DNA of 38,073 nt from assembly GCA_024686135.1 (NCBI GenBank), contig JAIBDQ010000011.1, forward strand, positions 1-38,073, in the 5' to 3' direction. A program made the translations under genes and the position numbers. This document shows positions 10,748-19,903 of this stretch, one piece after another. Position 1 is the stretch's first letter, and each line of letters starts with the position of its first letter. Source of the stretch: Halobacteriovorax sp. Lineage in GTDB: Bacteria; Bdellovibrionota; Bacteriovoracia; Bacteriovoracales; Bacteriovoracaceae. The notes below the pieces were generated by a model, which worked only from the letters and a program-made list of their open reading frames with translations, was not told the DNA's origin and made no database searches.

Positions 10748-11452
10748 AAAGTACTTAGTTTTCTTTTTCTCTTTTTAATCAGCACTCCTGGCTTTACTGC
10801 TCAGGAGTGGACCCTCATAGAAAAACAAGACAAGATTGAACTCTACACGGGATCAAACCCCATTGATGATATTTATCCCTACAAGGCCAAAGTCTGGCTC
10901 CCCTATTCCATCCCTAAAATCTTGGCCGTCTTCTTAGATAGCAAAAGAAAAAAGGAGTGGGTCCCAAGACTATGGGAGACCTGGATAGAAAATGACTCTA
11001 CAAAAACCGGATCAAGAATTGAGTACGGTGAAGTTTTAGTCCCCTGGCCTTTTAATAATCGAGACGTCTTAGTCAAAATTGAAACTAAGGTTGTTGGAAA
11101 TATAAACCACGTCATCTTATTAGCCGCCTCTGTTCAAAACGATCGAATTATAAAAGACTCCGCTGTTAGGGCCATCGTCCACCCAAGTAAACTCGCCTTG
11201 ATATGGGATGCCGAGAAAAAAGAAACCTTACTTGAGACGGTTTCCTTTACTGACCCCAAAGGCTATATCCCCGCTTGGATAGTAAATCTTTTTCAAAAAA
11301 CAGAAGCTATAACTATGGTTGAGTCTCTTAGAAGACAATTGGCCAAAAATCTCTATTCCCAAAAGCAAATTGAAGAAATTGAGCAAGGCCTAGAGGGTAT
11401 TTTAAAAAATGCGGGAAAAAAAGAGCTTGTTAACAAAGCCTCCTCACCTTAA
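10745..11452 (+). CDS. Exported START-domain (lipid-transfer type) protein, apparent ATA start
   Basis: Probably binds a hydrophobic ligand in the envelope. Read from ATA 10745 it has 235 residues. Residues 1-19 are a signal peptide (MKVLSFLFLFLISTPGFTA), then a START-like domain. Features include the WTLIEKQDKIELYTG opening, a conserved Trp in KEWVPRLWE, VPWPFNNRDVLV, and the late signature DPKGYIPAWIVNLFQK seen in bacterial START proteins. Beginning at the first standard start (TTG 10922) would remove the signal peptide and the first strands of the domain. That makes the non-standard start the better reading. It is coupled to dsbD upstream and followed by a receiver-domain gene. The ligand is unknown. 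Confidence 0.75.
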   Translation: MKVLSFLFLFLISTPGFTAQEWTLIEKQDKIELYTGSNPIDDIYPYKAKVWLPYSIPKILAVFLDSKRKKEWVPRLWETWIENDSTKTGSRIEYGEVLVPWPFNNRDVLVKIETKVVGNINHVILLAASVQNDRIIKDSAVRAIVHPSKLALIWDAEKKETLLETVSFTDPKGYIPAWIVNLFQKTEAITMVESLRRQLAKNLYSQKQIEEIEQGLEGILKNAGKKELVNKASSP

Positions 11453-11462
11453 AATCTTCCAT

Positions 11463-11912
11463 ATGCCAGAAGACTCTGAATTCATCACATTCTCTAAAAA
11501 CCCTCGTTTTGCGAAAATGCCCAAAAAAACTAACTTCTTAGTTTTGGATGATATGGACTCAATGCAAGTGGCAGTGTCTAGAGACCTTAAGAGAATTGGT
11601 TTTACCGGAAATTTTTATGGTGTAAAAACAATCGCAGAAGCTAAAGAGGCTTTAGAAACACATGATATACATTTTATTTTTGCAGACTGGAATCTTCAAG
11701 ACGGTGAGATAGGACTAGACTTTTTGAAGCATGTTCGTAAGCACCATAAGCAACCACTTTTTCCAGTGGTGATGTTTACTACTGAAAGTGAAGTTGAAAA
11801 TATTCTTGAGGCCGTCGAGGCTGGAGCCTCCAATTATCTCGTAAAACCCTGGGAAATCGAGGAACTAAGAGAAAAAGTCTCTCATGCCTATAATGGATTT
11901 ATTAACGGATAA
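11463..11912 (+). CDS. CheY-like single-domain response regulator
   Basis: A receiver domain with no output domain, so it probably signals by protein contact. Hallmarks are the acidic pair in FLVLDDMDSM, the phospho-acceptor Asp in IFADWNLQDG, a switch Thr in VMFTTES and the invariant Lys in YLVKPWE. The first 18 or so residues are a short leader before the domain. No start has a good ribosome site. ATG 11463 leaves 10 bases after the START gene; ATG 11409 would overlap it by 44 bases, and ATG 11517 would still keep the whole domain. No histidine kinase is adjacent. It converges with the zinc dehydrogenase gene, with five bases between stops. Confidence 0.88.
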   Translation: MPEDSEFITFSKNPRFAKMPKKTNFLVLDDMDSMQVAVSRDLKRIGFTGNFYGVKTIAEAKEALETHDIHFIFADWNLQDGEIGLDFLKHVRKHHKQPLFPVVMFTTESEVENILEAVEAGASNYLVKPWEIEELREKVSHAYNGFING

Positions 11913-11917
11913 AATTC

Positions 11918-12940
11918 TCAAAGGTCTTCTTCTAAAGAGATTACCACTTTAATCGTTTTATCTCTTTTCAAAGCTATTTCAAAAGCTTTAGAGACATCTT
12001 TAAAAGAGTATTTTTGAGTGATCATTTTTTTTGAAATGTCCTCAATATCTTTTTTCCAGTACTCGTAACAGTTTGAAATTATATTTTGAGGCATCCCTTT
12101 CATCCACTTTATGGTGGCATTTCGAACAGCGAATTGATTTGAGTTAATATTTGGGCTATTGATATACTTTCCAACGATCAAGATATTTACCCCTACAGCA
12201 GAAAAAAAGTTTGCGAACTTCCAAAAGCCTTGCTTTTGATTTCCATCTCCAGAGCAATCAATAATATAAGGAAAAGCGCCCGATTGATCAGCATCCATCA
12301 ACTTAATAGGTGTATACTCCACATTTAGCCCAAGGCTCGCTGCAAATTCAACTCTGTATTTATCGACTTCAAGCAACTGATAATCATAATTCTCTCTTTT
12401 AGCTTGAAGAGCACAGAAAAGCCCAACAGGACCGGCTCCAAAGATAAGAAGTTTTTGTTCTTTTTTAAAACCTAATCTTTTAATTTGAGAAATTGCCTCA
12501 AAGCTGACTGCTGCAACTTCAATAAGGACCGAAGCTTCTTTGCTAAGTCCTGAAACTAAAACAAGATTTTCTTCTTGTAAAATTACTTTTTCTCTTAATG
12601 CTCCAATTTCAGTACCACCAAAAACACTTCCCTTTGCACATAGATTAGTCTCTCCCTGTTTACAGGTCGGGCATTCCCCACAGCCCAAAAAGGCAGCACT
12701 TGTAACATTATCTCCGACTTTAAACTTCTTTGAACTTGATTGAATAACTTCTCCAACCCACTCATGCCCTAGATGTAGTTCAGTTTTCTCATCCGCTACT
12801 TCTATTGCAAATAGATCAGAGCCACAGATACCAACCATTAAAGGTTTTATTAAGAGTTCACCTTCTTTAAGCTCGTCCGGTGAATCGATCTCTTCAAGTT
12901 TAAAGCCTTTATTGCGAAAGACCCATTCACGCAGTTTCAT
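11918..12940 (-). CDS. Zinc-dependent medium-chain alcohol/polyol dehydrogenase
   Basis: Expected to oxidise a sugar, polyol or cyclitol alcohol with NAD(P)+. It has 340 residues, normal for the MDR family. Catalytic-zinc ligands are Cys39 in GICGSD and His59-Glu60 in LGHEW. The structural zinc site is Cys87, Cys90, Cys93 and Cys101 in CGECPTCKQGETNLC. The Rossmann loop GAGPVG is at 168-173. It is the last gene of the kdsB-to-dehydrogenase operon, overlapping the radical-SAM/aminotransferase fusion by 14 bases, so the two probably act on one pathway. Enzymes of this family (NeoA/KanE type) carry out the dehydrogenation in 2-deoxystreptamine synthesis, but threonine or sorbitol dehydrogenase-like activity cannot be excluded. 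Confidence 0.88.
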   Translation of the reverse strand: MKLREWVFRNKGFKLEEIDSPDELKEGELLIKPLMVGICGSDLFAIEVADEKTELHLGHEWVGEVIQSSSKKFKVGDNVTSAAFLGCGECPTCKQGETNLCAKGSVFGGTEIGALREKVILQEENLVLVSGLSKEASVLIEVAAVSFEAISQIKRLGFKKEQKLLIFGAGPVGLFCALQAKRENYDYQLLEVDKYRVEFAASLGLNVEYTPIKLMDADQSGAFPYIIDCSGDGNQKQGFWKFANFFSAVGVNILIVGKYINSPNINSNQFAVRNATIKWMKGMPQNIISNCYEYWKKDIEDISKKMITQKYSFKDVSKAFEIALKRDKTIKVVISLEEDL

Positions 12941-14873
12941 TTAATTCCCCAATAATTTTCACCATCAAATTTGCCATCTCTTTGACCTCATCAAGAGATA
13001 ACGTAATATCGATTTCTCCTCTCAAGGTTCCCATTAGGGTATCTAATGATTCAATATAGTTAATCTTTTTAAATTCGTATTTCTTTGCAGTATTTGAATA
13101 AGGATCTCTCCTTTTATCAAAAGTTCTTCCTTCTTTTAGATAGTCATGCCATTTCCATACGCTGTGGGCAACTCTCATAGATAGTGGGATCATCATAATC
13201 CCTCTGGCCAAGAGTTTTTTAGAAAGAATCACGGCCTGATCTGGCGAATTTAATTGCAGGTGAAAAGTAGAAAAGGTTTGACCATCATATTCGTTTGAAT
13301 CTACTAGTTTAAAATAATCTCCATAAAAAGGACTCTTCTTTAGGGACTCATCAATGATTCTTTTTCTTTTTTCGTTTTCCTCTAAGATTCTATCTACTTT
13401 TTTTAGCTGAACTCTAAGCATCGCTCCAGAAATTTCTGAGATTCTCATAGAAGCACCAAGCATAGGACTTATATGCTTAAACTTGTCTTTGTGAAGGGGG
13501 TTAAAGGCATAAGCCTGATCGGTTATACATAAAAGCTTCTCGGCCAAAACTTCATCACTTGTAGTAACAGCTCCACCTTCCCCACAAGAAATAGTCTTGT
13601 CTTTATTAAAAGAAAAACAGCCTAAATCACCGAAGGACCCTAGTTTTTTTCCTTTATAAGAGGCACCAAGGGCCTGAGCCACATCTTCAATTAAAAAGAT
13701 TCCTTCTTTTTTTGCAAAATCAGAGATTTTATCGATCTCACATTGCAAGCCATCCATATGAACAGGAATTATTGCTTTAGTATTTTCAGTTACCGAACCT
13801 TTGACTTCCTCAAGTGAGATTAAAAGGTCTTTTCCAATATTCACTACAACTGGAATAGCCCCAACGTTAAGGACTGCACTTGCCGTAGCAAAAAAAGTAT
13901 AAGAAGGAATGATAACCTCATCTCCTTCGCCAATTTCTAAGGCCAGTAAAGAAGCAATCAATGCATTAGTTCCACTTGTTAAGGACACAGTCGACTTTGT
14001 TCCTAAAAACTTAGAGAACTCTTGATCAAAAAGTTCGCATTCTCCCGGTTCTTGCTGATATCTAAAAAACTTTCCACTTTCTAAGACCGCTTTAATAGCC
14101 TCTAGTTCCTCTTCATCAATTAAATGTTTATTTTTATTGCTCATATCTCTATCTACTCTATTGCAAGAACTACAAGTTTTATATAAATCTCTTTTTCCAT
14201 TTTTTAGATCATTTCTAAACTTTTCATATTCAGGACTATTCCAAATTTCAATGGCATTTCTTTTATTAACATTCCCAAAATCGTATATTTGATTGAAGTC
14301 TTCAAAACAAGAAAGAACATTACCTTTTACAGTTATGGTCAGAATATGCTCTGGTAAACTACAGGGCTTTCGCCTCGTTTCATCCCCACTTCCAAGTTTT
14401 GGTAAGACACCCGCTCTATTATATTTAATTATTTCATTATGACCTTTAAGAGATATTATCGATTTCTGAGATTCAGATAGTTCAGAGTAGAATTCATCGA
14501 TGGCCAATTTTTTGACCTCTTCATGTTTAGTGATGATAAACTTATCAACACCAAATGATATAAGCTCTTCGAATCTTTCTTTAGAATTAATTTTCATACC
14601 GTTGGAGTAGAGAATTAATGTCATATTTGGAAGGTCAGTTTTAGCCTTTTTAATAAATTCGTCTATATGAGTACATAAGAGGGGCTCATTATAAAACTCA
14701 AAAGCCATTTGACCTGAGTAATTATATTTCTTTAACTGTTCTATAATTTTTTCAAATAGAACCGGGTCCATATCCCCTTGCTCAATTCTTTCGGCGACAG
14801 AGTTAGGACAATAGCTACAAGAAAGATTGCAATGACTATTTATCTCAATCTCAACTAAACGAGGTAGCTTCAT
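12927..14873 (-). CDS. Fusion: BtrN-like radical-SAM dehydrogenase + DegT/DnrJ/EryC1 aminotransferase
   Basis: One 648-residue frame with two enzymes. Residues 1-240: radical SAM domain with Cys15, Cys19 and Cys22 (CxxxCxxC) and YNEP at 61-64. A twitch-type auxiliary cluster follows with Cys171, Cys189, Cys234 and Cys237. From memory, this spacing and blocks such as CPNSV, MDP, FYxEPLLC and GNVLxCFEDFNQ match BtrN, the butirosin dehydrogenase. Residues 250-648: a full fold-type I aminotransferase with SGTNAL, GDEVIIPSYTF, IIPVHMDG, EDVAQALGA and SFNKDKTISCGEGG, where Lys426 is the likely PLP lysine. The linker is under 15 residues, with no internal stop. An internal ATG at 14144 might also yield the aminotransferase alone. 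The start ATG overlaps the gpsA stop (ATGA). Likely role: oxidise an alcohol and aminate the product; the substrate is unknown. Confidence 0.85.
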   Translation of the reverse strand: MKLPRLVEIEINSHCNLSCSYCPNSVAERIEQGDMDPVLFEKIIEQLKKYNYSGQMAFEFYNEPLLCTHIDEFIKKAKTDLPNMTLILYSNGMKINSKERFEELISFGVDKFIITKHEEVKKLAIDEFYSELSESQKSIISLKGHNEIIKYNRAGVLPKLGSGDETRRKPCSLPEHILTITVKGNVLSCFEDFNQIYDFGNVNKRNAIEIWNSPEYEKFRNDLKNGKRDLYKTCSSCNRVDRDMSNKNKHLIDEEELEAIKAVLESGKFFRYQQEPGECELFDQEFSKFLGTKSTVSLTSGTNALIASLLALEIGEGDEVIIPSYTFFATASAVLNVGAIPVVVNIGKDLLISLEEVKGSVTENTKAIIPVHMDGLQCEIDKISDFAKKEGIFLIEDVAQALGASYKGKKLGSFGDLGCFSFNKDKTISCGEGGAVTTSDEVLAEKLLCITDQAYAFNPLHKDKFKHISPMLGASMRISEISGAMLRVQLKKVDRILEENEKRKRIIDESLKKSPFYGDYFKLVDSNEYDGQTFSTFHLQLNSPDQAVILSKKLLARGIMMIPLSMRVAHSVWKWHDYLKEGRTFDKRRDPYSNTAKKYEFKKINYIESLDTLMGTLRGEIDITLSLDEVKEMANLMVKIIGELNETA

Positions 14874-15901
14874 TCTAGTTCAAATCTCGATGGAATCCGC
14901 ATTAACGTTTCAATAACTTCTTTTGCTTTTTTACCTTGAAATAAGACTTCATGGGTTGCATTAAAGATATTGGCCCTAATCTCGTACTTCTCAGAAAGAA
15001 GATGCACGGCTTGGGTTGTTTTATATCCTTCCACTGTTGTTCTTTGAGAATTGATAATATCTTCTGGCGTTCTTCCCTTTGCCAACTCTAATCCAAACTG
15101 CTTATTTCTTGATAGACCACCTGTGGTCGTGAGAATTAAGTCCCCCATTCCAGAAAGACCATAAAAGGTTTCTGGTCTTGCATTAAAGACTCTTCCAAAA
15201 CGAAGCATTTCGGCAATTCCTCTCGTAATCATGGCGGCCCTAGTATTATCGTTATAGCCAAGCCCCTCAATAACACCCCCGGCAATGGCCAGAACGTTCT
15301 TCAGGGCTCCTCCAAGAAGTACTCCTTTAACATCATATGATGGAAGAGCTTTAAAATATGGAGCTTCAAACATCTTAGATACCTGAGTTAGAGTTTTCCT
15401 TGAACGTCCCGCCAGAGTGACAAGAGTGATCTGCTCTTGGACAATCTCTTTAGCAAAACTAGGTCCTGATAAAAAAGTAAAAAGCTCTTTATGATGGGGA
15501 AACATTTCATAGAAAAGGTCATCAGCCATTTCCAAGGTGACCGGATCAATGCCTTTTGAAAGTGAAACTACTGGTATTTTTTTTTCTAAATATTTTTGAA
15601 AGCGATCTTGGTTTTCTTCGTAGAATTTTCCAATAGCCGCAGTGGGAAGACCTGAGACAATAAGCTCAATCTCTCCATCAACAAGTTCATCTACTTCTTC
15701 CCATGTAAGCGCCGGAATAAGATGACTTGGAAGTTTTAAACCTGGAAGATAAACCGCGTTTTCATCATTATCTTTTATAGGGGTGTAAACATCCTCAGAA
15801 CGAACTTTTAAGATAACCTTTTCAAAGTTATTGGCGACAACTGAAGCGATGGCCGTTCCAAAGGCACCGGCACCAATGACAAGGGCAGTTTTTTGAGACA
15901 T
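14870..15901 (-). CDS. gpsA: Glycerol-3-phosphate dehydrogenase [NAD(P)+]
   Basis: Reduces dihydroxyacetone phosphate to sn-glycerol-3-phosphate, the backbone of phospholipids. It has 343 residues, near the usual 330-340. The N-terminal dinucleotide-binding motif is VIGAGAFGTA at 8-17. FLSGPSFAKEI is at about 143-153. Lys201 in GGALKNVLAIAGG is the catalytic lysine, and the NDNTRAA substrate loop and GLSGMGDLILTTTG follow. The start is nine bases after the DUF493 gene, and its stop overlaps the next gene by ATGA. It belongs to the envelope operon that also makes CMP-Kdo. Confidence 0.96.
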   Translation of the reverse strand: MSQKTALVIGAGAFGTAIASVVANNFEKVILKVRSEDVYTPIKDNDENAVYLPGLKLPSHLIPALTWEEVDELVDGEIELIVSGLPTAAIGKFYEENQDRFQKYLEKKIPVVSLSKGIDPVTLEMADDLFYEMFPHHKELFTFLSGPSFAKEIVQEQITLVTLAGRSRKTLTQVSKMFEAPYFKALPSYDVKGVLLGGALKNVLAIAGGVIEGLGYNDNTRAAMITRGIAEMLRFGRVFNARPETFYGLSGMGDLILTTTGGLSRNKQFGLELAKGRTPEDIINSQRTTVEGYKTTQAVHLLSEKYEIRANIFNATHEVLFQGKKAKEVIETLMRIPSRFELE

Positions 15902-15910
15902 GCTCTCTCC

Positions 15911-16174
15911 TTAAAGTGAGATAATTCCTTCTATTGAGGATACTCTAAGATAGATTGTAATGACATCTTCAGAAGATTGAAGATGTTTTTTTACTGTGAT
16001 GCTCATATAGTTCCCTTTTTTACTTGGTCTTAGGGTTATGTCGGCATCACCGATTAAAGTAATCAAGCTTTCTTGCTGATCCACGGGCACAATAAACTTA
16101 AAAATGTAGGGGCTAGGCCACTCCATAGTTTCATCTAATACCGCTTTTAATTGATTTAATTTTTTCTCATCCAT
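15911..16174 (-). CDS. DUF493 / YbeD-family small protein
   Basis: A protein of 87 residues, the same length as E. coli YbeD, with the family pattern: WPSPYIFKFIVP near the start, RPSKKGNYMSITV in the middle and VITIYLRVSSIEGIISL at the end. These proteins have an ACT-like alpha/beta fold; YbeD is proposed to be regulatory, and the biochemical role is not known. The chosen start, ATG 16174, lies one base after the kdsC stop. A longer in-frame ATG at 16204 would overlap kdsC by 29 bases and exceed family length. It sits between kdsC and gpsA. Confidence 0.8.
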   Translation of the reverse strand: MDEKKLNQLKAVLDETMEWPSPYIFKFIVPVDQQESLITLIGDADITLRPSKKGNYMSITVKKHLQSSEDVITIYLRVSSIEGIISL

Positions 16175-16175
16175 A

Positions 16176-16733
16176 CTAATCAAATTGAGGAATTGGTATA
16201 TCAATCCCGTTTGCGTAACGAAAAATATCTATAACTTCCCTAACGCATCCTTTCCCGCCTTCACGGTAACAGATATAGTCAGCCACTTCTCTTACTTCAT
16301 GGGAAGCGTGAGTAACTGTAGCTGAAAATCCTGCTTTTTTAAGAAGGGGCATATCAAAGAACTCATCGCCCATATAAAGGATTTCTTCTGCTTTAAACCC
16401 TTCGGCCATTAACTCTTTAAAGGCTTCGCGCTTATCTTCTTTTCCAACATAGACAAAATCAAGATTTAGATTTTCTTCAAATCGTTTAATCACACCAAGA
16501 CTATCGCCGCCGGTGATAATCCCAACTTTATACCCAAGTCTTTGCATAGCACGCATTCCGTAACCATCAAGTACATTGAAGCTTCTATTAAAGCCGCATT
16601 CTTCTCCATCCCACTGAATAGTTCCATCAGTGAGAATCCCATCGACATCAAAGGCCAAAACTTTTATTGGCTCAAGTTTAGCTTTAAAGTGACGGCCAAT
16701 GGCACGAAAATCAGGAAGATCGTGATTATGCAT
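16176..16733 (-). CDS. kdsC: 3-deoxy-D-manno-octulosonate 8-phosphate phosphatase
   Basis: Dephosphorylates Kdo-8-phosphate to Kdo. It is a HAD-superfamily C0-type phosphatase of 185 residues. The nucleophile motif is DVDGILTDG with Asp29 and Asp31. The second motif is GIITGG. The acidic motif MGDEFFDMPLL has Asp123 and Asp127. The C-terminal CYREGGKGCVREVID is characteristic of KdsC. The start codon overlaps the kdsA stop by one base (TAATG), showing translational coupling. Confidence 0.96.
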   Translation of the reverse strand: MHNHDLPDFRAIGRHFKAKLEPIKVLAFDVDGILTDGTIQWDGEECGFNRSFNVLDGYGMRAMQRLGYKVGIITGGDSLGVIKRFEENLNLDFVYVGKEDKREAFKELMAEGFKAEEILYMGDEFFDMPLLKKAGFSATVTHASHEVREVADYICYREGGKGCVREVIDIFRYANGIDIPIPQFD

Positions 16734-17533
16734 TAGACTACCTCGTAAATTTTAAGAAGTGATTCCACTATTTTTGGAACCGTATTTAAATCTAAACAGT
16801 TTGTTGGATCACTTTTAGCCTGATCAGGTGTTGGATGAGTTTCCATAAAAACTCCATCCGCACCGGCAGCGATAGCAGCCTTTGCCAGAGCAGGTATCTG
16901 CTCTCTAGCCCCACCCGTACTCGTCCCAAGACCACCAGGTCTTTGCACACAGTGAGTGGCATCATGTATGGCCTTAACACCAAAGCTTTTCATAATTTCA
17001 AAAGAGGCCATATCAACAATAAGGCGATTGTAACCAAATGTTGTTCCTCTCTCAGTTAGAAGTATTGAGTCTTCCTTAAGAAAAGTTTTTGCTTTTGAAA
17101 CAATATTTGAAGTTTCCTCAGGGGATAAGAACTGTCCCTTCTTTACTTTTAATCGGCTTCCATTTTTAGCGCATGCCTCTGCTCCTGCTAAGATCATATC
17201 CGTTTGGCGGCATAAAAAAGCCGGCACCTGAAGGACATCGCAAACCTCAGATACAGGTAGGGCCTGATCTGGATAATGAAAGTCCGTGATAACGGGAAAA
17301 CCAAAGTCGTCTTTAATTTTTTGAAGGATACGAAGACCTTCCTCCAGCCCTGGTCCTCTATAAGAATCAATGGAAGAACGGTTGGCCTTATCAAAGCTCC
17401 CTTTAAAAGTGAGTTTGATCTTTTCTTCAAATGGTTCAAGGGACTTCTTTAAGGACTCAGCAATTTCCATAGCCAGAGCTTCAGACTCTAAAACACAAGG
17501 ACCTATAAATAGTTCGAGCGGTTGTTTACTCAT
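16733..17533 (-). CDS. kdsA: Kdo-8-phosphate synthase
   Basis: Condenses phosphoenolpyruvate with arabinose-5-phosphate to form Kdo-8-phosphate. It has 266 residues. Family motifs are IGPCVLES near the N-terminus, FKGSFDKANRSS, VITDFHYPDQ, LCRQTDMILA, HDATHCVQRPGG and METHPTP. The Cys13 in GPC corresponds to the metal-ligand cysteine of metal-dependent (Aquifex-type) enzymes, whereas the E. coli enzyme has Asn there. A metal-dependent mechanism is therefore expected. It overlaps pyrG and kdsC by one base at each end (TAATG). Confidence 0.96.
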   Translation of the reverse strand: MSKQPLELFIGPCVLESEALAMEIAESLKKSLEPFEEKIKLTFKGSFDKANRSSIDSYRGPGLEEGLRILQKIKDDFGFPVITDFHYPDQALPVSEVCDVLQVPAFLCRQTDMILAGAEACAKNGSRLKVKKGQFLSPEETSNIVSKAKTFLKEDSILLTERGTTFGYNRLIVDMASFEIMKSFGVKAIHDATHCVQRPGGLGTSTGGAREQIPALAKAAIAAGADGVFMETHPTPDQAKSDPTNCLDLNTVPKIVESLLKIYEVV

Positions 17534-19158
17534 TAGTTTTGCTGTCCTTTATCTGCTGCCTCTATAAATGTTTTAAAAAGTGGATGGGCCGCAAAAGGTC
17601 TTGATTTAAATTCAGGATGATACTGACAAGCAATAAAGTAAGGATGGTCTTCAAGCTCAATCACTTCAACAAGATTCAAGTCTTTATTAATTCCAGAAAT
17701 TACCATTCCGGCCTGCTTAACTTTATCTACATATTCGTTATTAACTTCAAGTCTATGACGATGCCTTTCACTGATATCAGATTTACCATAAATCTTATGA
17801 GCAAAAGTTCCCTTCTCAAGATGACAATCATAAGCTCCTAGTCTCATGGTAGCACCTTTAGAGCCATCTTTAGTTTGACCTTCCATATAGTGGATCAATG
17901 TAGAACCAGAAGTATCAAACTCTGCACTAGTGGCATCTTTTATTCCAGCCACATTTCTAGCAAACTCGACCATAGCAAGTTGCATACCAAGGCAAATCCC
18001 AAAGTAAGGGACTTTCTTTTCTCTAGCGTATTTAACGGCGCGAATCTTTCCTTCCGTGCCTCTTTCACCAAAGCCGCCCGGAACTAAAATCCCGTGGCAT
18101 TCAGAAAGAATGTCATCTACTTTTGATTCATCTTCTAATTCTTCGGCATCGATATAAGTTGTCACTAGCTTTAATTGATTAGCTAGTGCCCCGTGAGTAA
18201 GCGCTTCACCTAAAGACTTATAAGATTCATGTAAGTCCGTATATTTCCCTACAATGCCAATCTTCACTTCTCTTAGTGGGTTATTATGGTTGTAAACTAC
18301 CTTTTCTAAATCCCCAACTTTTGGAGTGGTTGTCCACATACCTAGAAGTTCAGTTAACTTGTTATCAAGCCCCTGCTGATGAAAAGCTAGAGGAACTTTA
18401 TAAATTGAATCTGCATCCATAGAAGCAAAAACATTTCCTTTTGGAACATTACAAAAAAGTGAGATTTTATCGATGATATTTGGCTCGATCTCATGCTCTG
18501 ATCTTAGAATAATAATATGCGGAAAAAGCCCCATTGATCTAAGTTCTTTCACCGAGTGCTGAGCTGGTTTTGATTTTAATTCCCCAGCCGCACTTAAATA
18601 CGGAAGTAATACTAAATGAACAAAGAGAACATTCTCTGGTCCTACATCGTGAGCGAATTGTCTGATAGCTTCGATATAAGGCTGTGATTCAATATCACCA
18701 ACAGTACCGCCAATCTCTCCTAGAAGAAGCTCGCAGTCTTCAGCGGCCACATGAATTCTTCTTTTGATTTCATCTGTAATATGAGGAACAACCTGAACCG
18801 TTTTCCCTAAGTACTTACCTTCTCTTTCATTCTCAATAACCTGCAAATAAACTTGCCCAGTTGTAAAGTTAGAGCTCTTACTTAAAGTAAGGGAAGTAAA
18901 TCTTTCGTAATGTCCTAAATCAAGATCCGTTTCCGCTCCATCATCAGTTACAAAAACTTCGCCATGCTGAGTAGGACTCATTGTCCCCGGATCCACATTA
19001 ATATAAGGGTCCATCTTAAGCATATTGATCTTGATGCCTCTTCTTTCTAGAAGAGATGCAACAGAGGCCGCCGCTAGCCCTTTGCCTAATGAACTTGCAA
19101 CACCGCCAGTAATGAAAACAAACTTTTTGCTGGGTTTTCCCCTTTTTGCACTATTCAT
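17533..19158 (-). CDS. pyrG: CTP synthase
   Basis: Converts UTP, ATP and glutamine to CTP. CTP is the co-substrate of KdsB, which explains the location in the kds operon. It has 541 residues from the chosen ATG. The N-terminal synthetase domain has VFITGGVASSLGKG and MDPYINVDPGTM. The C-terminal glutaminase domain has nucleophile Cys389 in FGICLGMQ and His514/Glu516 in YHPEF. I chose ATG 19158 because GAGGGG lies seven bases upstream; an adjacent TTG at 19161 is also possible. The start overlaps the kdsB stop by eight bases. Confidence 0.97.
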   Translation of the reverse strand: MNSAKRGKPSKKFVFITGGVASSLGKGLAAASVASLLERRGIKINMLKMDPYINVDPGTMSPTQHGEVFVTDDGAETDLDLGHYERFTSLTLSKSSNFTTGQVYLQVIENEREGKYLGKTVQVVPHITDEIKRRIHVAAEDCELLLGEIGGTVGDIESQPYIEAIRQFAHDVGPENVLFVHLVLLPYLSAAGELKSKPAQHSVKELRSMGLFPHIIILRSEHEIEPNIIDKISLFCNVPKGNVFASMDADSIYKVPLAFHQQGLDNKLTELLGMWTTTPKVGDLEKVVYNHNNPLREVKIGIVGKYTDLHESYKSLGEALTHGALANQLKLVTTYIDAEELEDESKVDDILSECHGILVPGGFGERGTEGKIRAVKYAREKKVPYFGICLGMQLAMVEFARNVAGIKDATSAEFDTSGSTLIHYMEGQTKDGSKGATMRLGAYDCHLEKGTFAHKIYGKSDISERHRHRLEVNNEYVDKVKQAGMVISGINKDLNLVEVIELEDHPYFIACQYHPEFKSRPFAAHPLFKTFIEAADKGQQN

Positions 19159-19903
19159 CAAACATCCCCTCTAATTTCTTTAAGTCTTCTGGAGTATCAA
19201 CTCCAATTAAATTAAGGCTGCTAACCAAGGCACCAATACTCATACCTTGTTCCATTGCTCTTAATTGTTCTAATTTTTCTATATTTTCATAAACTCCCAT
19301 TGGAGATTCACAAAATTTCTGAAGGGCCACTGGCCTATAAGAATAGACACCAATATGCTGCCACCACGACTTAAGCTCACTTCCATCTCTATCAAAAGGA
19401 ACTGAGCCTCTTGAAAAATATAAACAGCGACCAGTTGGTGCCACTACGGCCTTTACAATATTTGGGTTTTTAAGTTCTTCTAGGTCTTTATTCTTTTTAA
19501 CAAGCGTGGCGATATCAAACTCACTATCTAAATGAAATTGAGCGAGCCTTTCAAGCTCATCTCCAGAAAGAAGAGGCTCGTCACCTTGTACATTTATAAT
19601 AAGATCAAATTTCTTATCTGAAGACTTCTGAAAAGCCAGATAGATTCTTTCAGTTCCACTTTGAACGTCATCATCTACGCGAATAACATTCCCACCAAAT
19701 TCTTTTACATGATTTTCTATTTTTTGATCGTCCGTAACAACATAGGCTTGGCAATCAAAGGAGGGAGAGGCGCCCATTGAAGTACAATTCTCGAAAACTC
19801 TTTGAATCATACTCTTGCCATTAATCTGGGCCAGGGGCTTTCCAGGAAATCTCGTGGAAGCATACCTAGCCGGAATGAGGACCAAAACACGATTTTTGGC
19901 CAA
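19151..19903 (-). CDS. kdsB: CMP-Kdo synthetase (3-deoxy-manno-octulosonate cytidylyltransferase)
   Basis: Activates Kdo with CTP to CMP-Kdo for LPS core assembly. It has 250 residues, the usual size. The motif LIPARYASTRFPGKPL is at the N-terminus, with NVQGDEPLL in the middle, the R-x-VPFDRDG region and HIGVYSYR. The start is TTG 19903, preceded by GGAG at about seven bases. It is the first gene of a long minus-strand operon ending at 11918. The divergent gap of 76 bases to the gene at 19980 holds its promoter. Confidence 0.95.
   Translation of the reverse strand: MAKNRVLVLIPARYASTRFPGKPLAQINGKSMIQRVFENCTSMGASPSFDCQAYVVTDDQKIENHVKEFGGNVIRVDDDVQSGTERIYLAFQKSSDKKFDLIINVQGDEPLLSGDELERLAQFHLDSEFDIATLVKKNKDLEELKNPNIVKAVVAPTGRCLYFSRGSVPFDRDGSELKSWWQHIGVYSYRPVALQKFCESPMGVYENIEKLEQLRAMEQGMSIGALVSSLNLIGVDTPEDLKKLEGMFDE

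Follow-up and report, generated by a model that had tools for sequence, protein, structure and literature searches.

We found a single reading frame in Halobacteriovorax sp. that joins a BtrN-type radical SAM domain to a DegT-family aminotransferase. We consider it probable that this fusion protein is a two-step alcohol-to-amine enzyme, which makes an aminosugar for an exported surface glycan and has a zinc-dependent dehydrogenase as its pathway partner. Both halves belong to known families, which work together as separate proteins in butirosin synthesis. A literature search found no published description of radical SAM and DegT domains in a single chain, in agreement with the preliminary description of this DNA, which knew of no characterised enzyme with such a domain order. 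The relevant features of the window, i.e., the whole stretch of 38,073 nucleotides that was analysed, are the following:

12927..14873, minus strand: fusion gene, 648 amino acids, BtrN-type radical SAM/twitch domain plus DegT aminotransferase (Pfam, PDB search, model)
14151..14873, minus strand: BtrN-like radical SAM/twitch domain, residues 1-241
14808..14831, minus strand: CX3CX2C motif of the predicted SAM cluster, Cys15/19/22, which maps on BtrN Cys16/20/23
14415..14417, minus strand: Arg153, equivalent of BtrN Arg152, in 43/43 rows
14163..14363, minus strand: predicted auxiliary [4Fe-4S] cluster ligands Cys171, Cys189, Cys234 and Cys237 (BtrN Cys169/187/232/235)
14121..14150, minus strand: linker of about ten residues, residues 242-251
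12930..14120, minus strand: DegT/KdnA-like PLP aminotransferase domain, residues 252-648
13596..13598, minus strand: Lys426, PLP lysine, in 33/33 aminotransferase rows
11918..12940, minus strand: Zn-dependent medium-chain alcohol dehydrogenase, whose start overlaps the fusion stop by 14 bases
14870..19903, minus strand: upstream genes gpsA, DUF493 protein, kdsC, kdsA, pyrG and kdsB, with a 4-base overlap between gpsA and the start of the fusion

The fusion frame has an ATG start, 648 codons and zero internal stops. All three Pfam domains of the protein (Radical_SAM 10-112, SPASM 171-238, DegT 252-515) exceed their curated cut-offs, and a sequence search against PDB chains returned first BtrN (E 5e-56, residues 2-265) and then KdnA (E 3e-53, residues 252-559). 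Since the radical SAM and DegT domains are both complete, a chance joining of partial frames was ruled out. The single uninterrupted frame that the preliminary description had claimed is thus borne out at exactly these coordinates and on this strand, and its content, a BtrN-like radical SAM domain and a full DegT enzyme in one chain, is upheld by the Pfam and PDB matches and by the conserved residues detailed below.

The radical SAM half has a single close relative of solved structure, BtrN (PDB 4m7s, 4m7t), which carries out a two-electron oxidation of an amino-cyclitol alcohol, the likely electron acceptor being an auxiliary cluster (PMC9012708); the SAM-cluster cysteines of BtrN are Cys16/20/23, and its auxiliary [4Fe-4S] cluster is fully ligated (PMC9012708; PMC6231123). 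The N-terminal half of the fusion matches this protein over its full length with approximately 36% identity. The three SAM-cluster and four auxiliary-cluster cysteines named in the preliminary description pair one-to-one with the BtrN ligands, and Arg152 and Glu189 (Glu191 in the fusion) are likewise shared; Arg152 is presumably catalytic in BtrN. Across the family, Cys15/19/22 are kept in 42/43 rows, the exception being a row cut by a contig end, and Cys171/189/234/237 in 43/43. The fusion is therefore predicted to possess a twitch domain with four ligand cysteines for one fully bound auxiliary [4Fe-4S] cluster; Pfam names this region SPASM, an assignment that we rejected because the number of cysteines and the similarity to BtrN indicate a twitch domain. 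Unlike the fusion, BtrN is a single-domain protein from an antibiotic cluster, where it serves as the 2-deoxy-scyllo-inosamine dehydrogenase of butirosin synthesis, whereas here the domain is joined to an aminotransferase and accompanied by no evident cyclitol-forming gene.

The DegT half scores 261.6 bits against Pfam DegT (cut-off 19.8). Lys426, already proposed as the PLP lysine, proved invariant in all 33 aminotransferase rows, KdnA among them, as did the ED motif Glu396-Asp397 in the DegT alignments. These residues and the twitch cysteines are thus kept across homologues. KdnA, the 8-amino-3,8-dideoxy-manno-octulosonate transaminase of Shewanella (PDB 5k8b), is the closest solved relative of this half (316 bits vs 240 for the next); it shares a VHM motif and a C-terminal H/W motif, but it is unfused and only about 30% identical, and its partner oxidase in Shewanella, KdnB, is an iron-type alcohol dehydrogenase. 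BtrR, the partner of BtrN in butirosin synthesis, also belongs to the DegT family, but is a separate protein with 26% identity.

Structure prediction supports this division of the chain. The final AlphaFold2 model, built from 41 rows (the nine fusions described below plus stand-alone relatives of each half), reached pLDDT 93.9 and pTM 0.80 and replaced a first model from 9 rows (pLDDT 75); residues 244-246 of the linker are its sole stretch with pLDDT <50. When the model was compared to the PDB with Foldseek, KdnA ranked first (TM 0.90 by target length, rmsd 2.8), BtrN gave TM 0.91 (rmsd 1.7 Å over 239 columns) and BtrR TM 0.77-0.79. The radical SAM half is thus predicted to have the BtrN fold over its full length. 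Of the superposition on BtrN and BtrS that the preliminary description had suggested, the BtrN part succeeded on the model, while the BtrS/BtrR fit fell behind that of KdnA. As KdnA is nearer to the DegT half than BtrS/BtrR by both sequence and fold, the analogy with butirosin synthesis is weak where BtrS is concerned.

We searched 59 relatives and then 369 genomes of the phylum; beyond the phylum, the search covered close relatives, plus plasmids and phages. Among the 369 genomes, the fusion is present in nine from six genera of the Bacteriovoracaceae-type family (G000, which is the window genome, G004, G035, G077, G091, G093, G094, G095 and G110), whereas the DegT clade as a whole occurs in 34. 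As far as their sequences extend, all nine fusions retain the cysteines and the PLP lysine; the start of the G095 fusion is missing at a contig end. A homologue at locus L083 is 64% identical to the window protein. An assembly error, or relatives that are always two genes, had been named as what would speak against the fusion. With the fused frame in nine genomes of six genera, among them a two-contig assembly and, in G004, a 3.4-Mb contig, chance or misassembly is excluded.

Maximum-likelihood analysis unites the nine radical SAM halves of the fusions in a single clade (98/92), and the DegT halves cluster together with two stand-alone DegT genes inside, from G001 and G075. G001 belongs to the window's genus and carries its DegT gene alone at the same kds site (L041:8762-9883); this gene is 55% identical to the window's DegT half and its sister in the tree (98/95). 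The upstream neighbours in G001 are 91-98% identical to those in the window, and the zinc dehydrogenase is absent. The simplest history suggested by these sequences is one fusion event, after which G001, and probably also G075, lost the radical SAM half. In another family of the same phylum, separate radical SAM and DegT genes lie adjacent in the same order (L091, L092), an arrangement that is likely the precursor of the fusion. The window encodes a response regulator at 11409-11912 (within 10922-11912), and G001 an unrelated esterase-like gene in that place (L041:7112-8761); the region is therefore variable within the genus.

The zinc dehydrogenase and the glycan gene cluster described below had both been passed over in the preliminary description. 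The Cys, His and Glu zinc ligands of the dehydrogenase are invariant in 20/20 orthologues, and its best curated match is scyllo-inosose 3-dehydrogenase, at 106 bits far under the cut-off of 450. Orthologues occur in 25 of the 369 genomes, all 25 inside the 34 DegT genomes (P ~1e-31), and the radical SAM family in 31, of which 28 are inside these 34 (P ~7e-33); both values ignore shared descent, and counting by genus gives 3e-14 for the dehydrogenase and 8e-21 for the radical SAM family. Among the 34 DegT genomes the dehydrogenase is absent in nine, including G035, which has the fusion, and the radical SAM gene in six; neither is thus indispensable. The dehydrogenase gene lies directly next to the fusion in five genomes (G000, G004, G077, G095, G110), and at another locus (L044) radical SAM, DegT and dehydrogenase form a trio of separate genes, while in many genomes the trio genes are far apart. 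The radical SAM paralogues fall into two groups in the tree: genomes with the fusion-holding group have the dehydrogenase in 21/23 cases, against 4/11 of the DegT genomes that lack this group (P 0.0017). Because dehydrogenase and radical SAM protein co-occur, a role of the former as mere substitute for the latter is disfavoured; that the two oxidases go together instead of replacing each other suggests two oxidation steps in one pathway.

In most genomes with these genes, at least one of them belongs to a cluster that also encodes family-1 glycosyltransferases, a NodU-type O-carbamoyltransferase and an ABC-2 exporter, along with small proteins, a PqqD-like protein and a second radical SAM/SPASM protein; from this content we infer an exported surface glycan as the product of the cluster. 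The fusion itself is inside the cluster in G093 and G094. In the window genome, the cluster is on another contig (C111), where it includes a BtrN-like protein of its own (L052), and the fusion is behind the kds genes. One cluster-marker family, c10, was broader than expected (77/369 genomes at E 1e-10); of its strong matches only, 24/26 track the DegT clade. Conserved loci of this cluster (L052:3-12000 on C111 of G000, L047, L048, L128, L084, L086) include a BtrN-like radical SAM protein, a radical SAM protein with N-terminal SPASM domain, an S24-like small protein, and nucleotidyltransferase-like and PqqD proteins. In G062 (L097:5847-8651), an O-carbamoyltransferase and a SPASM/radical SAM protein are apparently fused in one frame of 934 amino acids.

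The two-step function is favoured by the retained cluster ligands and the fit of the model to BtrN and KdnA, because the fusion has a single origin and its halves recur as adjacent genes (L091, L092) and in the L044 trio, i.e., by Rosetta-stone logic, and because the trio co-occurs over the 369 genomes and is surrounded by the glycan cluster. The proposed enzyme would work as follows: the BtrN-type domain would use SAM and its [4Fe-4S] cluster to generate a 5'-deoxyadenosyl radical, which would remove a hydrogen atom from the C-OH carbon of a sugar-like substrate; the auxiliary cluster would accept the second electron, yielding a ketone or aldehyde, and the C-terminal PLP domain would transaminate this carbonyl to an amine. 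The chemistry of the radical step is carried over by analogy from the characterised BtrN, and that of the transamination from the DegT family. The zinc dehydrogenase would catalyse another oxidation in the same pathway and may supply the aminotransferase with a second carbonyl. The product would most likely be an aminosugar, possibly a diaminosugar, for the surface glycan of Bacteriovoracaceae-type bacteria. The identity of the substrate, the number of aminations and a direct carbonyl transfer between the sites are our guesses. That one aminotransferase domain serves the zinc dehydrogenase as well as the radical SAM domain of its own chain, placing two amines on one sugar of the glycan with the carbonyl passed between the fused domains, is a tentative and rather improbable extension; the diamine and the unreleased ketone of the preliminary description are speculation, although two unlike oxidases that accompany one aminotransferase leave room for the diamine.

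The fusion brings together two families that, as separate proteins, cooperate in aminoglycoside synthesis, and points to a use of BtrN-type enzymes outside antibiotic clusters. It makes the conversion of C-OH to C-NH2 by a single chain directly testable and could give access to a hitherto undescribed surface glycan, probably carbamoylated, in Bdellovibrio-type bacteria.

A synthesis of 8-amino-8-deoxy-Kdo (Kdo8N) is the alternative that survives best, although we consider it unlikely. Here, the radical SAM domain would oxidise Kdo at C8 to the aldehyde, replacing KdnB, and the KdnA-like half would aminate it before activation by KdsB. The kinship of the DegT half to KdnA in sequence and fold is in line with this, as are the position of the fusion gene behind kdsB-pyrG-kdsA-kdsC-gpsA, the same-clade DegT gene at the same site in G001, cytidylyltransferases near two further loci (L040, L046), and the precedent of Shewanella, in which KdnB oxidises Kdo at C8 (PMC5125639). 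However, among the loci examined, kds neighbours of the DegT clade are confined to the window and G001, hence to one genus, and the other loci are within the glycan cluster, close to it, or at different places. The low identity to KdnA also argues against Kdo8N, and the KdnA pathway has one oxidase, whereas the fusion genomes usually have two.

It is less probable still that the product is an aminocyclitol resembling 2-deoxystreptamine or streptamine, formed as in butirosin synthesis with the aminotransferase acting twice. Stand-alone radical SAM relatives are up to 48% identical to BtrN, the dehydrogenase has its top curated match in scyllo-inosose 3-dehydrogenase, though far below the cut-off, and the glycan cluster contains an O-carbamoyltransferase and glycosyltransferases. 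Yet the DegT half is not nearest to BtrR, and myo-inositol-phosphate synthase was found in 0/9 fusion genomes, inositol uptake being another possible source. Nor was a 2-deoxy-scyllo-inosose synthase found beside AroB: each fusion genome has at most one match to the DHQ-synthase family, at 30-36% identity, which is presumably AroB itself, the window genome being 82% complete. Without inositol-phosphate synthase and with at most one DHQ-synthase-family gene, scyllo-inosamine and amino-deoxy-scyllo-inosose, the butirosin-like substrates put forward in the preliminary description, are unlikely natural substrates. As the cyclitol is disfavoured and the kds location occurs in one genus only, an aminosugar of an exported glycan is the favoured product. 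That the halves catalyse steps which are unrelated or do not follow one another, and are fused only to be held together or kept equal in amount, is similarly improbable: G001, and probably G075, lost the radical SAM half but retained DegT, and the two genes are far apart in many genomes, but one fusion was retained across six genera, and the separate genes are repeatedly adjacent and co-occurring.

The fusion was not found in the plasmids and phages searched, which yielded related arrangements. Plasmid pHS1 of Sodalis praecaptivus (L149) has, like the loci studied here, a gene for a BtrN-like radical SAM/SPASM protein next to those for a glycosyltransferase and an ABC-2 exporter; unlike the fusion genomes, it has an annotated 2-deoxy-scyllo-inosose synthase nearby. 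The BtrN-like protein is 37% identical to BtrN, compared to the up to 48% of the Bacteriovoracaceae proteins, and L149 is possibly an aminoglycoside-type cluster in a relative of the enterobacteria. A PIG-L deacetylase and ABC-2 transporters are also encoded there (L149:7178-10699). On the Smac51 plasmid of a Deltaproteobacteria bacterium, outside the sampled genomes of the phylum, a separate radical SAM/SPASM gene directly precedes a DegT gene (L147:8944-11042), with several other radical SAM genes around, and on a Rhizobium plasmid a DegT relative adjoins a GMC oxidoreductase and NRPS/PKS genes.
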